From assembly GCA_913060565.1 (NCBI GenBank), contig CAJXRU010000036.1:1-32456 (forward strand): a DNA stretch of 32,456 nt, given 5' to 3'. How positions within the stretch are numbered: position 1 is the first letter of the stretch; every line of letters starts with the position of its first letter. A program made the position numbers and the translations under genes. Of the stretch, positions 18,202 through 26,897 are shown in pieces. The notes below the pieces were generated by a model. It saw only the letters and a program-made list of their open reading frames with translations. It made no database searches and was not told the DNA's origin. Source of the stretch: an uncultured Gammaproteobacteria bacterium (lineage in GTDB: Bacteria; Pseudomonadota; Gammaproteobacteria; Enterobacterales; Psychrobiaceae).

Positions 18202-18341
18202 TATCGTTTGTACTGCTGTTAGTGGTTATCAATAAATCACAGGCATAATAGCATTAACGGCGGTGAATGGTAGTTAAATTAAAAGATTTCGCAATGACAC
18301 ACATTGCTTTAATGAGACACTGTTTAGGTCGGTAATTAATG

Positions 18342-18373
18342 AGGTGTGCCAGTAGGTTATGGCACACCTTTTT
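18342..18373 (+). terminator. 10-bp perfect hairpin after hisI
   Basis: AGGTGTGCCA (18342-18351) and TGGCACACCT (18360-18369) form a perfect stem with an 8-nt loop, 7 bp beyond the hisI stop. The run of five T (18369-18373) is on the plus strand, so canonical polarity is plus, although the only adjacent transcript end is the minus-strand his operon. It may act as a stabilising or weak terminating 3' stem for his mRNA. Confidence 0.55.
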
Positions 18374-18376
18374 AGG

Positions 18377-18984
18377 TTACTTATGGCGTGAACGCAGATT
18401 ATCCATGATCTCTGTCAGTGGCACTTCTTTACCTCGCAGCAGAACCAGCAAATGATAAAGTAAATCAGAAGATTCGTTAATTAATTCATCACGGTCATCT
18501 GTCGCAGCAGCAAGAGCGACTTCAACACCTTCTTCACCTACTTTTTGTGCCATGCGTTTAACGCCGCTATTAAACAATGACGCCGTGTAGCTGCTTTCGT
18601 CGCGGTCGGCATAACGCGCGTCAATGACTTGATTGAGTTGGCTAATAAAATCAAGATCAAAACCGTTTGAATCAGCAAAACAGCTTTGAGTGCCAAGATG
18701 ACACGTTGGGCCAGCCGGCTGCGCCATCACCAATAATGTATCTTTATCACAATCGATGGCCATATCTTTGACATGGAGAAAATCACCCGAGGTTTCACCT
18801 TTGGTCCACAAGCGATTCTTCGTTCGGGAGAAAAAAGTCACCTTCATGCTGGACAATGTTGTATCGAGCGCTTCTTGGTTCATATACCCGAGCATCAAAA
18901 CTTGACCATTAAAACTGTCTTGTACAATCACAGGTAATAGATTGTCGACTTTTTCCCAGTTAATAGCGGTTATTTGCGTCGTTG

Positions 18985-18991
<7 letters not shown>
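18377..18991 (-). CDS. hisI: Bifunctional phosphoribosyl-AMP cyclohydrolase / phosphoribosyl-ATP pyrophosphatase
   Basis: Catalyses steps 2 and 3 of histidine synthesis (HisIE fusion); 204 residues, against 203 in E. coli. The N-terminal cyclohydrolase domain (about 1-115) has [26 protein letters not shown] and the zinc region [10 protein letters not shown]...[12 protein letters not shown]. The C-terminal pyrophosphohydrolase domain (about 120-204) has [20 protein letters not shown] and [14 protein letters not shown], the all-alpha NTP-PPase metal site. It is the last gene of the operon, overlapping hisF by 7 bp, which implies translational coupling. Confidence 0.97.
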
Positions 18992-21102
<2,111 letters not shown>

Positions 21103-21103
<1 letters not shown>

Positions 21104-22170
21104 TACAACACACCTTTACTACTTGGAAGCTGAGTGCCTTCCACTTTAATCGCTTGGCGTAGAGTACGGCCAAAAGACTTAAAAATGCCTTCGACTAAGT
21201 GGTGACTATTTTTGCCTTCGCCTTTGATGTGTAGTGTTGCGGCCATTGCACTTGATAATGAGTGGAAGAAATGAGGCACCATTTCGGTTGCCAGTTCCCC
21301 GACACGTTCATTAGTGAACTCGGCATTAAATTCAAGCCAGCCACGACCTGATAAATCCAGTGCACAAGTACACAAGCATTCATCCATTGGCAGTGTAAAG
21401 CCAAAGCGGCCTATTCCGCGTTTATCACCGAGTGCTTTAGCAAGGGCGTTGCCTAAGGCAATTGCCGTATCTTCGACGGTGTGATGATCATCGATGTGTA
21501 AATCACCGCTGACTTGTGCATTGAGCTCAAAGCCGCCGTGAGTGGCAATTTGATCGAGCATGTGATCGAAAAAACCAATGCCGGTAGAGATAACGCTACC
21601 ACCTTGTTTGTCTAAATTGACACTGACGCTAATTTGAGTTTCATTAGTATTGCGCACTACGGTGGCTGTGCGTTCTTTGACTGTTAACGCGCGGGCAATA
21701 TCGTTCCAATTAAGGCTCGTTGGGCAATATTTAAATGATTTGAGTCCCATGTTGTTAGCCAAATCAATATCTGTTTGACGATCGCCAATGACATAGCTAT
21801 TCTCAAAATCGACACGGCCAGCTTGTAGCAAGTCTTTTACCAAGCCAAGCTTAGGTTTTCGGCAGTGGCAATTGTCTTCGTCAAAATGCGGGCAAATCAG
21901 CACCTCTGAAAAATTAACACCTTGGGAAGCAAAAATTGCCATCATTTTATCGTGGGCTAAGTCAAAGTCTGCTTGTGGGAAACTTGATGTGCCAAGACCA
22001 TCTTGATTAGACACCATGATCAATTCATACCCAGCCTGTTGCAGCTGTAATAGTACGGGAATAACGTTAGGTTCAAAGACTAACTTTTCTAGCGTATCGA
22101 GTTGTTTGTCGACGCTTGGCTCCTCGACTAAGGTGCCGTCGCGATCGATAAATAAAATTTTACTTCTCAT
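21103..22170 (-). CDS. hisB: Bifunctional histidinol-phosphatase / imidazoleglycerol-phosphate dehydratase
   Basis: Fusion enzyme for steps 6 and 8; 355 residues, identical in length to E. coli HisB. The N-terminal HAD phosphatase domain (about 1-165) has the nucleophile motif [12 protein letters not shown] (D9, D11) and a zinc-binding loop [11 protein letters not shown]. The C-terminal dehydratase domain (about 168-355) has two metal-binding histidine motifs, DDHHTVEDT and NSHHLVEG. This fused form is typical of gammaproteobacteria. It is separated from hisC by an unusual 103-bp gap holding degenerate short repeats. Confidence 0.98.
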
Positions 22171-22273
22171 GTCTTATCTCTTTTGAATTCGGTTCAACTT
22201 TCAGTATGCTAATTAAAAGTGCTCTAACTACAAGTGTCCTAATTAACAGTGCTGTTGTTAAATGTTCTTTGAG
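22171..22273. repeat. hisC-hisB intercistronic gap with degenerate AT-rich repeats
   Basis: Four related segments follow one another with a period near 15-16 bp (gctaattaaaagt, gctctaactacaagt, gtcctaattaacagt, gctgttgttaa) around 22207-22262. The phrase gctaatta recurs inside the hisC 3' end just beyond the gap. Other junctions in this operon overlap or are 5 bp or less apart, so this is the only sizeable gap. Confidence 0.5.
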
Positions 22274-23341
22274 CTAAGCAGCTGTCTGCTTAGCTATGCT
22301 AATTAACGCCGCTGTCAGCTTTTTCATTTCTTCACCGCTGCCAATGCTAAATCTCAAGCATCGCTCCAACGTGGGGACTTGTGATTGATTCCTTACTACA
22401 ATGCCCGCTCGGCCAAGTTCACTAAACCAGTTATCATTGTTAAAACGAACCAGCACAAAATTACCACCAGAGTGATAGACTTCTTCTACACCTTGAAGGG
22501 GCGAAATATCATTTGCAAACTGCTGGGCTAGTTGATTGAGTTCGCTTACTTGTTGGCGCATTTGTGCAATGCCATCAACCGTAAGTGCTTGCGCTGCAAT
22601 ATCGCCTACGGGGGCTGAAATCGGGTAGGGCGCAATGACCTTTTTTGCCAGATTAATAATGTGCTGATTAGCCAGCATAAAACCACAACGCAGCCCTGCA
22701 AGTCCAAAGGCTTTTGACAACGTGCGCAATACCACCACGTTGTTATATTGATTGATTAAACTTGCGCAGGTTAGCTGCGCTGAAAATTCAATATAGGCTT
22801 CATCAACCACAACGATACATTGCTCGCTTGTTGCTTCAATTATCTGCTCAATATCCTCAGGCGTTATGGTTGAACCCGTTGGATTATTCGGGTTACAAAT
22901 AAAGAGTAACGACGAGTCTTTAAGCTTAGCGGTTAAGTTACTTTCGAGTTGCCAATTTGGCGTTAGCGGCACTTCATTCACTGCAACATTGCAAGTCGCG
23001 GCGCTAATGGCATACATGCCATAGGTCGGCGTACAAATGGTAATACTGTCTTTACCGGGTACGCAAAACGTTCGGATCAGTAATTCAATGGCTTCATCGG
23101 CGCCGCGCGAGGCTAATATTTGGCTGTTATCTAGTTTGCTATATCGGGCATAGTTTTCAATCAGCTGCGCTGGCTGAAATTCGGGATAACGATTATATGC
23201 AGGCTCGTTATTGGCAAAAGGTGATTCATTAGCATTGAGCCAAATATCACCAGAGCCGCCAATACGACGTGCCGATTGATAGGGCGTCATCGTTAATAAT
23301 TCGGGACGCGCTAGGCGATTAATTAAAGAAACATCACTCAT
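22274..23341 (-). CDS. hisC: Histidinol-phosphate aminotransferase
   Basis: PLP-dependent class II aminotransferase converting imidazole acetol phosphate to histidinol phosphate with glutamate, step 7; 355 residues, the family length. NPNNPTGS, VVDEAYIEFS and the PLP-lysine motif RTLSKAFGLAGLRCGF (Lys near residue 210) are present, with the C-terminal LRFSIGS arginine motif. AAGGA precedes the ATG at good spacing. It lies 4 bp after the hisD stop. Confidence 0.97.
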   Translation of the reverse strand: MSDVSLINRLARPELLTMTPYQSARRIGGSGDIWLNANESPFANNEPAYNRYPEFQPAQLIENYARYSKLDNSQILASRGADEAIELLIRTFCVPGKDSITICTPTYGMYAISAATCNVAVNEVPLTPNWQLESNLTAKLKDSSLLFICNPNNPTGSTITPEDIEQIIEATSEQCIVVVDEAYIEFSAQLTCASLINQYNNVVVLRTLSKAFGLAGLRCGFMLANQHIINLAKKVIAPYPISAPVGDIAAQALTVDGIAQMRQQVSELNQLAQQFANDISPLQGVEEVYHSGGNFVLVRFNNDNWFSELGRAGIVVRNQSQVPTLERCLRFSIGSGEEMKKLTAALISIAKQTAA

Positions 23342-23345
23342 TTGG

Positions 23346-24632
23346 TTATCCTTTAGCGTTTAATCGAATTGACACAGCATTAGCGTGGGCATCTAATCCC
23401 TCAGCCATGGCCAATGGAACAATTGATGATTCTAGATTGTTAAGTCCTTCAAATGACAATTCTTGCACCGTAAAGCGACGTGAAAAATCAGCCAGACTTA
23501 AACTTGAGTAGCTGTTACACATTCCGTATGTCGGTAATACGTGATTAGTACCACTAGCGTAATCGCCGGCAGACTCTGGGCTCCACTTTCCTAAAAACAC
23601 TGAGCCCGCCGCATATATGTCAGTTAATACATCGCGTGGCTGCTCGGTTTGAATAATTAAATGCTCAGGCGCATAGTCATTGGAAATACTAATCGCTTCA
23701 TCGATATCACGGCACACAATAATTTTACTGTGCTCAAGTGCTGCGCGGGCAATATCAGCGCGACTTAGTGCCGTTAATTGTTCGTCGATAGCAGTTGTCA
23801 CATCACGCGCCAGCTGCTCACTGTCGGTGAGTAGGATAGTTTGGGAATCGGTGCCGTGTTCTGCTTGAGATAACAAATCCGCTGCCACAAAGGCGCCATT
23901 TGCATATTCATCAGCAATTACTAACACCTCCGATGGGCCGGCTGGCATGTCAATTCCTGCTCCGCCAACGGCGTTTGATACTTGTTTTTTAGCTTCGGTA
24001 ACAAATTTGTTGCCGGGGCCATAAATCTTATCAACACTTGGCACCGTTTGTGTGCCAAACGCCATGGCTGCTACGGCTTGCGCACCGCCAATTTGGTAAA
24101 TAGTGTCAACGCCGCACAGCTGTGCAGTATATAAAATGACATCAGAGATTGGCGGCGGACTACACAAAATGATATTTTTGCAACCTGCAATCACAGCAGG
24201 AACAGCGGTCATCAATACGGTTGATGGTAGTGGTGCGGTGCCACCTGGCGCATATAAACCAACACTGCGAAGCGGTTGAGTGCGCAGTTCACATTGCACC
24301 CCCTTAACGGTTTCCACACTAATATCTTGCTGCGTCTGTGCACGGTGAAACTTTTCGATGTTTGATTTAGCCAGTGCGATGGCTTGTTTTAACTCGTCAC
24401 TAATACTTTGACTAGCGGTTTCAATTTGCGCCGCACTAACAGCAATCTCGTTAAGTGACGTATTATCAAAGCGCTGGGCATAATCGCGCAGCGCATCATC
24501 GCCTTGCATCTTAACATTGTCGATAATATTACTTACTTGCGTATGTAACATCGCAGAATCTTCAAGCGCTGGTCTGGCGAGCTGCCGCGTACGCTCTTGT
24601 GGTGATAATGAAGACCAAACTAGTGTGCGCAT
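23346..24632 (-). CDS. hisD: Histidinol dehydrogenase
   Basis: Zinc- and NAD-dependent enzyme that oxidises histidinol to histidine in two steps, the last in the pathway; 428 residues, against about 434 in E. coli. Conserved segments include LYAPGGTAPLPSTVLM, IYGPGNKFVTEAKKQV, IDMPAGPSEVLVIAD (a metal-site region), LLSQAEHGTDSQ and GDYASGTNHVLPT. It begins 5 bp after the hisG stop, as second gene of the operon. Confidence 0.98.
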   Translation of the reverse strand: MRTLVWSSLSPQERTRQLARPALEDSAMLHTQVSNIIDNVKMQGDDALRDYAQRFDNTSLNEIAVSAAQIETASQSISDELKQAIALAKSNIEKFHRAQTQQDISVETVKGVQCELRTQPLRSVGLYAPGGTAPLPSTVLMTAVPAVIAGCKNIILCSPPPISDVILYTAQLCGVDTIYQIGGAQAVAAMAFGTQTVPSVDKIYGPGNKFVTEAKKQVSNAVGGAGIDMPAGPSEVLVIADEYANGAFVAADLLSQAEHGTDSQTILLTDSEQLARDVTTAIDEQLTALSRADIARAALEHSKIIVCRDIDEAISISNDYAPEHLIIQTEQPRDVLTDIYAAGSVFLGKWSPESAGDYASGTNHVLPTYGMCNSYSSLSLADFSRRFTVQELSFEGLNNLESSIVPLAMAEGLDAHANAVSIRLNAKG

Positions 24633-24637
24633 AGTAT

Positions 24638-25534
24638 TTATCCCAGCATTTTTTCAATTGGCATAACAAGAATCGAACTTGCACCAAGGGTTTTAAGCTC
24701 TTCCATCGTTTCCCAAAATAGGGTTTCGCTACTCACAGCGTGAACGGCAACCATGCTGTCGTCGCTTGTTGGTAAAATGGTTGGATTCTCTGCGCCGGGT
24801 AATAGTGAAACGATTTTATCAACATTAGTTTTAGGCGCGTGTAGCATGATGTATTTTGATTCACGTGCTTGAATAACACCATTAAAACGAGTCATTAATT
24901 TATCAAGTAATGCTTGTTTTTCTGGAGATAGAATCTCCATTGATTTAATTAATACGGCTTGGCTTTGAAAGAAAACTTGTGATTCTTTTAAGCCGTTCGC
25001 TTCAAGGGTGGCACCAGTAGAAACCAAATCACAAATCGCGTCGGCGATGCCTGCGCGCGGCGCAACTTCTACCGAGCCTTTTAATGTCACATTGGTGTAT
25101 TTCACGTTTTCACTATCGAGATAGCGAGTGAGTAAGTGCGGATAAGAAGTGGCAATACGTTGGCCTTCAAATTGCTTCACATCGGTGTATTCAACTTCAG
25201 TCGGAATAGCCAGCGATAGACGACAACCACCGAAATCGAGACGCTTTAACACTTCATACTCACTAGGCGCATTGGCCGCGATGCGTTCTAGTTCTGTCTC
25301 TTCAAGTTCATTCTCGCCAATAATGCCTAGATCACAAACACCGTCCATAATCAGCGTTGGAATGTCGTCATCGCGTACCAACAATAAATCGATAGGTTCG
25401 TTGGTACAGTGAGCAATTAGACGTTGTGAGTTGGTATTAAACTTAATACCGCTGCCTTTTAAAAGTTTCTTGGCTTCGTCTGATAGGCGACCTTTCTTTT
25501 GGATCGCGATACGTAATCTATTGCTCGTTTGCAT
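24638..25534 (-). CDS. hisG: ATP phosphoribosyltransferase (long form)
   Basis: Condenses ATP with PRPP, the first and feedback-controlled step of histidine synthesis. From the ATG at 25534 the protein has 298 residues, matching the long hexameric HisG (299 in E. coli), which has its own C-terminal regulatory ACT-like domain and needs no HisZ. Key motifs are [39 protein letters not shown], and the PRPP-binding segment [14 protein letters not shown]. The C-terminus [12 protein letters not shown] is typical. The upstream ATG at 25549 would add MEYET, but it overlaps the GGAG ribosome binding site for 25534, so the downstream start is preferred. Expression is controlled by the attenuator just upstream. 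Confidence 0.97.
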
Positions 25535-25553
25535 TGTTTCATACTCCATAAAT

Positions 25554-25583
25554 AAAAAAACCTCTGGTGAGCCAGAGGTTTTT
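25554..25583 (-). terminator. his attenuator terminator stem
   Basis: On the minus strand CCTCTGG pairs with CCAGAGG around CTCA (25561-25578); flanking A and T runs extend the stem, and seven T follow (25554-25560). It sits between the his leader peptide and hisG. Its 5' arm (CCTCTGGC) can instead pair with the upstream segment GCCAGCGG, giving the antiterminator. Confidence 0.92.
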
Positions 25584-25596
25584 ATTTAACTTATAA

Positions 25597-25624
25597 CCGC
25601 TGGCAGAATCGTCATCTTTCCAGC
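25597..25624 (-). promoter_or_regulatory. his attenuator alternative stems (antiterminator segments)
   Basis: On the minus strand GCTGG (25624-25620) pairs with CCAGC (25603-25599), forming the early hairpin. The overlapping segment GCCAGCGG (25604-25597) can also pair at 7 of 8 positions with CCTCTGGC in the 5' arm of the terminator. This gives mutually exclusive structures chosen by where the ribosome stalls on the leader His codons. Confidence 0.8.
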
Positions 25625-25641
25625 AGAAAATCTCCTGAAAA

Positions 25642-25689
25642 TTACCGGATAATTAGATGATGGCGATGATGATTCAGAAAATTGGTCAT
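25642..25689 (-). CDS. hisL: his operon leader peptide
   Basis: Fifteen codons on the minus strand encode MTNFLNHHRHHLIIR, with four His codons in the run HHRHH, followed by TAA. The size, position upstream of hisG and the following terminator/antiterminator stems are the standard layout of a his attenuator: scarcity of charged tRNA-His stalls the ribosome in the run and allows antitermination. E. coli has seven consecutive His codons; here an Arg interrupts the run. The ribosome binding site is weak. Confidence 0.9.
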   Translation of the reverse strand: MTNFLNHHRHHLIIR

Positions 25690-25732
25690 TTGTAAGTTAA
25701 TCGTTAAATTTTGTGTTTCAAAGATGTTAGTA

Positions 25733-25761
25733 ACATTAGGCGAGGGCGTTGGTAAATGCAA
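25733..25761 (-). promoter_or_regulatory. Predicted his operon promoter
   Basis: On the minus strand TTGCAT (25761-25756) and TAATGT (25738-25733) are separated by 17 bp. Initiation would fall near 25726, about 37 nt before the leader-peptide ATG, a typical distance. Inferred from motif and position only. Confidence 0.5.
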
Positions 25762-26063
25762 CGCTTAATTTCATTAAATCATTAGACAAAAGGCTATTAC
25801 TTATGGCTTTTTTATCTTTGTTAGTAAAACAATATAAATAATCGATTGTTTATAGGGTTAACTATCAGTTTGGTCGTTAACTTGACTATACATGTATGTG
25901 TCATCATAAAATATTGCTGCCTAAATTGGTGTAATGATTTATGATTAATGCGTCTCTAAATAATTGAAAATAGTCGAACTTAAGCGGGTCGCGTTAATAT
26001 TTCGTTAAGTTTAAGAGCACGACTATTCCAATGGACAAAAAAACTATTATTAAAGGAAACACT
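25762..26063. other. Divergent intergenic region, his operon / mscS
   Basis: About 300 bp of AT-rich non-coding DNA between the his promoter and the mscS start. TTGACT at 25882-25887 with ATAAA-type sequence around 25905-25912 is a weak candidate promoter for mscS. I see no other gene, repeat or RNA motif here. Confidence 0.4.
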
Positions 26064-26897
26064 ATGGATAACTTTTCTACAGAAAACTTACAGAACTTGA
26101 TGAATCAAGGGGCTGAAATGGCGATGTTGTACTTGCCCAAATTAATCCTCGCTTTACTGACCCTGATCATTGGCTTTTGGGTTATTGGTAAGATTGTCAA
26201 AGGAACTACTAAGGTACTAAATGCTCGTTCCGTTGAAGCGACATTACAACGTTTCTTATCGAGCTTGATTGGTGTTGGCTTAAAAGCAATGCTTATAATT
26301 AGTGTCGCGTCTATGGTTGGCATTGAAACCACTTCATTTGTTGCTGTGCTAGGTGCTGCTGGTTTAGCGATTGGTTTGGCACTGCAAGGTTCATTATCAA
26401 ATTTTGCAGGTGGCGTACTTATTCTATTCTTCAAGCCGTTTAAGGTTGGCGATGTTGTTGATGCGCAAGGCTATGTTGGTGTTATCAAAGAAATTCAAGT
26501 ATTTAATACGATTGTAACAACGTTAGATAATGAGCGAGTGATTATTCCAAATGGCGTACTGTCTAATGGTCCTATCAAAAATCTATTTGCTGAGCCAACA
26601 CGCCGCGTTGATATGACGTTTGGTATTAGCTATGACGACAATGTACAGGGTGCTAAAGAAGTGATCCGTCAATTGGTTTTAGCTGATGAGCGTTTACTAG
26701 AAGAAGAAAACGGTCATGAGATCTATGTCAGTGAGCATGCAGACAGTTCAGTTAACTTATTAGTACGTGTATGGTGTAATTCACCTGATTACTGGGGCGT
26801 TTATTTTGACATGCATGAGAAAGTGAAACTGGCATTTGATGAGCAAGGTATTACAATTCCTTACCCGCAACGCGATGTACACATGAAAAGTGCTTAA
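26064..26897 (+). CDS. mscS: Small-conductance mechanosensitive channel (MscS type)
   Basis: Inner-membrane channel that opens on hypo-osmotic stretch; 277 residues against 286 in E. coli, so it is the short three-helix type. TM1 (MLYLPKLILALLTLIIGFWVI) and TM2 (LKAMLIISVASMVGI) precede the pore helix TM3, GAAGLAIGLALQGSLSNFAG, with its Gly/Ala packing. GVLILFFKPFKVGDVV and VNTIVTTLDNERVIIPNG-like sequence (FNTIVTTLDNERVIIPNG) form the beta domain, and a C-terminal alpha/beta vestibule follows. The start at 26064 has AAAGGA correctly placed; the in-frame ATG at 26031 lacks one. It is followed by an intrinsic terminator. Confidence 0.95.
   Translation: MDNFSTENLQNLMNQGAEMAMLYLPKLILALLTLIIGFWVIGKIVKGTTKVLNARSVEATLQRFLSSLIGVGLKAMLIISVASMVGIETTSFVAVLGAAGLAIGLALQGSLSNFAGGVLILFFKPFKVGDVVDAQGYVGVIKEIQVFNTIVTTLDNERVIIPNGVLSNGPIKNLFAEPTRRVDMTFGISYDDNVQGAKEVIRQLVLADERLLEEENGHEIYVSEHADSSVNLLVRVWCNSPDYWGVYFDMHEKVKLAFDEQGITIPYPQRDVHMKSA

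Follow-up and report, generated by a model that had tools for sequence, protein, structure and literature searches.

The DNA upstream of the histidine operon in the analysed window, a 32,456-nucleotide stretch of genomic DNA, almost certainly encodes a ribosome-mediated transcription attenuator of hisGDCBHAF(IE). Ribosome-mediated attenuation is a control long established for his operons. All parts of the complete his attenuator proposed in the original prediction were found on the minus strand and in the expected order, and the reading was strengthened by His-rich leaders in relatives, by covarying hairpins and by two alternative folds. The attenuator is regarded as genuine and ordinary, being new solely as an instance.

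The first gene of the operon, hisG (24638-25534, minus strand), scored above the cut-off of the NCBIfam models TIGR00070 and TIGR03455. Judged from the sequence, its start most likely lies at 25534, because a GGAG motif is located nine bases ahead, at 25547-25544; the ATG at 25549 is in frame but lies upstream of this start, which corrects the original prediction. The genes hisD, hisC, hisB, hisH, hisA, hisF and hisIE occupy 18377-24632 on the minus strand, each with an NCBIfam model above cut-off. Two terminator-like sites, one per strand, were observed right after hisIE (18291-18370). A divergent gene at 26031 was mscS-like, with 227.5 bits falling below the curated cut-off of 321 bits.

A putative promoter, weak by consensus, precedes the leader on the minus strand. 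It consists of a -35-like hexamer TTGCAT (25756-25761) and a -10-like hexamer TAATGT (25733-25738) separated by a 17-nt spacer, each matching three of the six consensus bases and each recurring in the genus, the second as TA.TGT. The window-derived pattern TTGC..-17 nt-TA.TGT was found in eight of the nine genus genomes, at a distance of 60-73 nt upstream of the leader ATG, and was recognized by eye in the ninth (G004); it gave no match in Aliagarivorans. The promoter claimed in the original prediction was thus retained as regards the hexamers and their recurrence, and qualified as regards its strength, as a consensus promoter scan reported no promoter at TTGCAT/TAATGT. An inverted repeat, GCGTTG-N7-CAACGC, lies over the -35 hexamer (25744-25763); it was rejected as a conserved element, since it was not retained in the relatives listed.

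Translation of positions 25689-25642 on the minus strand yielded the predicted 15-residue leader peptide, MTNFLNHHRHHLIIR, followed by a stop codon, and similar leaders were present in all nine genus genomes. The control codons, CAT CAT CGC CAT CAT (His His Arg His His), occupy 25657-25671. A short His-codon-rich leader ORF is therefore located ahead of the first his gene. When the 300 nt before hisG were shuffled with dinucleotide composition preserved, a short ORF with at least four His in five codons did not occur in any of 5000 shuffles, and no other short ORF in the window reached this density, apart from the same frame read from TTG 25761. AGG-containing stretches were noted ahead of the leader ATG in three related loci (L088-L090).

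Six minus-strand segments can be arranged into alternative helices. Segment A (25673-25683; codons 3-6, before the His codons) forms 11 pairs with segment B (25629-25641), which directly follows the leader stop codon, and this agrees with the early hairpin that had been predicted. Segment B may pair with A or with segment C (25617-25626), the latter helix joining 25641-25635 with 25623-25617. Segment C may alternatively pair with segment D (25595-25604), through 25626-25620 and 25603-25597. The partner of D is C or segment E (25571-25583), the 5' arm of the terminator, which pairs with D or with segment F; F and the seven-T run of the terminator together span 25554-25567.

The intrinsic terminator between the leader and hisG (25583-25556, minus strand) contains 12 pairs and has, as proposed, a run of seven T residues (25560-25554). 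In the region 25400-26100, both strands included, four terminator-like sites were detected compared to 0.4 expected. The mutually exclusive antiterminator is formed in the window by D:E, with GCCAGCGGUU (25604-25595) facing AACCUCUGGC (25580-25571), and is accompanied by covariation in relatives. The pairing itself was as predicted, with the count revised from seven of eight to nine of ten. A 172-nt fold gave z = -5.54, and none of 200 shuffles was as stable.

Comparison with Rfam gave a divided outcome. At a relaxed threshold, the His_leader model (RF00514) matched 25663-25551 over its full length with 40.5 bits (E 2.8e-5), which is under the gathering score of 49 bits, so that the window falls outside RF00514 as curated; no Rfam model reached its gathering score anywhere in the window. 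The same model also yielded 36.4 bits on a different terminator of this genome (C186:688-807, L002). This site was rejected as a second his leader, since it begins where a long coding sequence, presumably that of elongation factor G, ends and extends into the terminator of that gene. Because of this match at another terminator, the case for the attenuator was not rested on the Rfam score. Among the nine genus genomes, eight carried a His_leader match no more than about 75 bases upstream of hisG (E up to 0.001), two of them passing the gathering score (61.3 and 54.4 bits), and G000 and G006 each had one extra match elsewhere in the genome. G004 gave no match, yet its leader contains six His codons.

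The original prediction had proposed a comparison of leader codons across Colwelliaceae. This family assignment is probably wrong, the genus of the window probably being Psychrobium, which NCBI places in Shewanellaceae. Psychrobium was mentioned in none of the 20 papers listed. The hisG gene was found in all nine genomes of the genus and, in an order-wide sample of 197 genomes, in at least 179. With the hisG of the window as query, the best 80 of 583 named loci were used; together with the window, eight further loci of the genus and 102 others taken from the order-wide matches listed, they gave 191 loci, and removal of 15 with identical upstream DNA left 176 distinct regions.

The leader frame was conserved in this comparison. 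A short ORF with at least three His in seven codons was present within 400 nt of hisG in 173 of the 176 distinct sampled regions and in 9/9 genus genomes, and at least four His in seven codons were present in 166 of the regions; these counts take the best ORF per region, the chance expectation having been computed just for the window, under the stricter criterion. No His-rich leader was found within 400 nt of hisG in the other three regions (L118, L120 and L162). The genome of L162 is about 1.1 Mb in size. In G005 (L089), approximately 55-60 extra bases separate the attenuator from hisG, which has an apparent GTG start.

Helices A:B, B:C, C:D, D:E and E:F could be drawn in all ten sequences compared (nine of the genus and one of Aliagarivorans), a count that rests on best duplexes without a shuffle control. 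Under the same absence of a shuffle control, the best A:B duplex contained 8-13 pairs in each of the ten. D:E was weak in G004 and G008, at about -9 kcal/mol.

For A:B and E:F taken together, 93.3% of 195 cells were paired (1/500 shuffles as high), and the covariation score was 0.176 compared to 0.128 in shuffles (2/500 as high). Four pairs showed two-sided changes (18/500 as high); the number of pair types, 13, was not above shuffles (70/500 as high). Every measure dropped when the partner strand was slid. In E:F alone, nine pairs were counted, with 97.7% of cells paired over the ten sequences. The seven pairs of B:C were formed in 100% of 70 cells and scored 0.210 compared to 0.135 in shuffles (0/500 as high); four of them were invariant, only one had two-sided changes (472/500 as high), and pair types were not above shuffles (500/500 as high). 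All these scores are inflated by the relatedness of the rows and by the reading of the structure from the same rows. A matched change was also observed between D and E: GCCAG in D of the window, G001 and G007 is replaced by UUCCAG in G002, and CUGGC in E by CUGGAA, which indicates that the antiterminator has been kept.

It is very improbable that the element is instead a constitutive 5' terminator which merely dampens the operon, with the leader left untranslated. Such an arrangement would agree with the terminator being the most stable element and with the finding that no clear Shine-Dalgarno sequence lies at 25690-25720, ahead of the leader ATG; it is opposed by the retention of the His-rich frame in nearly all regions (173/176) and by the covariation of the alternative helices.

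Two ribosome positions were compared by folding the RNA of the window up to E. With the ribosome at the stop codon, C:D folded and E remained open (-12.9 kcal/mol), whereas with the ribosome on the first His codon, B:C and D:E folded (-18.7 kcal/mol). Eight rows were listed in this test, six of them from the genus (G004, G006 and G008 excepted), and the stalled-state fold B:C with D:E was obtained in five of these six, the exception being G002, in which the stalled RNA up to E kept C:D. L160, the E. coli-type leader, gave essentially the same stalled fold. For Aliagarivorans, D:E was folded in both states up to E, so this simple test does not separate them. Once F was present, the best fold contained E:F whichever the state, in all eight rows listed, which implies that the choice must be made while transcription is under way, in agreement with the accepted model.

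As an attenuator, the region would operate as follows. RNA polymerase would start at about 25726 and transcribe the leader. With charged tRNA-His plentiful, the ribosome would cross HHRHH, reach the UAA directly before B and cover B; C:D would then pair, E would be left free to form E:F, and transcription would end near 25554. With histidine scarce, the ribosome would stall on the His codons, covering A and freeing B, so that B:C and D:E could pair, the terminator would be blocked, and hisGDCBHAF(IE) would be transcribed. Without translation, A:B would form and favour termination. Assuming ribosome footprints of the usual size, the first His codons would be the most influential stalling sites.

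The region resembles hisL of E. coli and Salmonella (RF00514) in its placement before hisG, in its His-rich leader peptide and in the opposition of B:C and D:E to C:D and E:F, with a terminator ending in a U run. As had been stated, its His run is shorter: four His codons are split by one Arg, compared to seven consecutive ones in the E. coli type, including L160. Segment A precedes the His codons in the window, whereas in L160 it overlaps them. Under a wider duplex search, it was clear of the His codons in eight of the nine genus members and overlapped them by 4 nt in G004. Over 173 leaders, a crude assignment without a shuffle control placed segment A clear of the His codons in 75, overlapping in 96 and after them in two; with 75 leaders of the first kind, its position is not special to the window.

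In the available part of a survey of Shewanella, hisG is listed among the operons with a leader peptide and a terminator (PMC2659441). Compared with such predicted his attenuators of marine gammaproteobacteria, the window appears to use the same control, and no difference in kind was found. Lower histidine sensitivity resulting from fewer and interrupted His codons is plausible under the model of Elf and Ehrenberg (2005), whose available text describes a calculated sensitivity that drops with the fraction of regulatory codons (PMC1183508).

Most probably, a His-to-Arg change that was tolerated accounts for the Arg codon. An Arg inside the His block occurred in nine of 173 leaders, namely six of the genus, two of the Aliagarivorans kind and one other (L165). 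That it is a selected second sensor, through which arginine shortage would also de-attenuate the operon, is considered unlikely. The idea draws on the position of the Arg, which lies within the run, at codon 9 of the leader, in six of the nine genus genomes and third in the run (HHRHHH) in L047 and L141 of the Aliagarivorans kind. It also draws on the hisG tree of 16 rows, where the Arg label needs at least three changes, of which one falls to Aliagarivorans and two to the genus (gains, or a gain and losses). Repeated gain at a similar place, with retention for arginine coupling, would make this a two-amino-acid his attenuator of Psychrobium and Aliagarivorans, a proposal to which we likewise assign little probability.

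Against a second sensor, His runs were uninterrupted in three of the nine genus genomes: codon 9 was His in G004 and G008, and the unbroken run of G002 was one codon shorter. All Arg codons in His blocks were CGC or CGT (the latter in G003 and L165), each one transition from CAC or CAT, and other one-step interruptions were present, with Tyr in L178 and L189 and Gln in L069. In addition, CGC is common: in 21 genes of the window it makes up 114 of the 357 Arg codons. The sensing of arginine supply tentatively suggested in the original prediction was thus not substantiated.

Published work bears on both sides of this question. According to the available part of Chevance et al. (2014), who tried each of the 64 codons in place of His5 in the Salmonella leader, his responded to serine starvation with Ser-Ser at His4-His5, which would favour a second sensor; CGU and CGA at His5 de-attenuated strongly, CGU partly via the preceding CAU, and AGG gave the strongest de-attenuation of the sense codons (PMC4046918). 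In contrast, CGC at that position gave significantly weaker de-attenuation than either CGU or CGA (PMC4046918), and one Arg in five codons would be a small regulatory fraction in terms of the available text of PMC1183508. By analogy, an arginine effect as a by-product is possible.

It is highly unlikely that the Arg codon is retained so that CCGCC in the run can pair with GGCGG further downstream in the RNA. Both motifs occur in G005 and G006, and the lowest z among 11 rows listed was -2.84 (L089); against this, the mean z over 153 leaders was -0.59 and that of the window -0.53. A general helix between His codons and the downstream region was likewise rejected after comparison of the 153 leaders with dinucleotide shuffles (median z -0.39), z being below -2 in 23 of them.

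A well-supported his attenuator is added for a little-studied genus, whose His run shows single-step variation without disruption of the RNA switch. The importance of the finding would rise only if the arginine codon were a second sensor.
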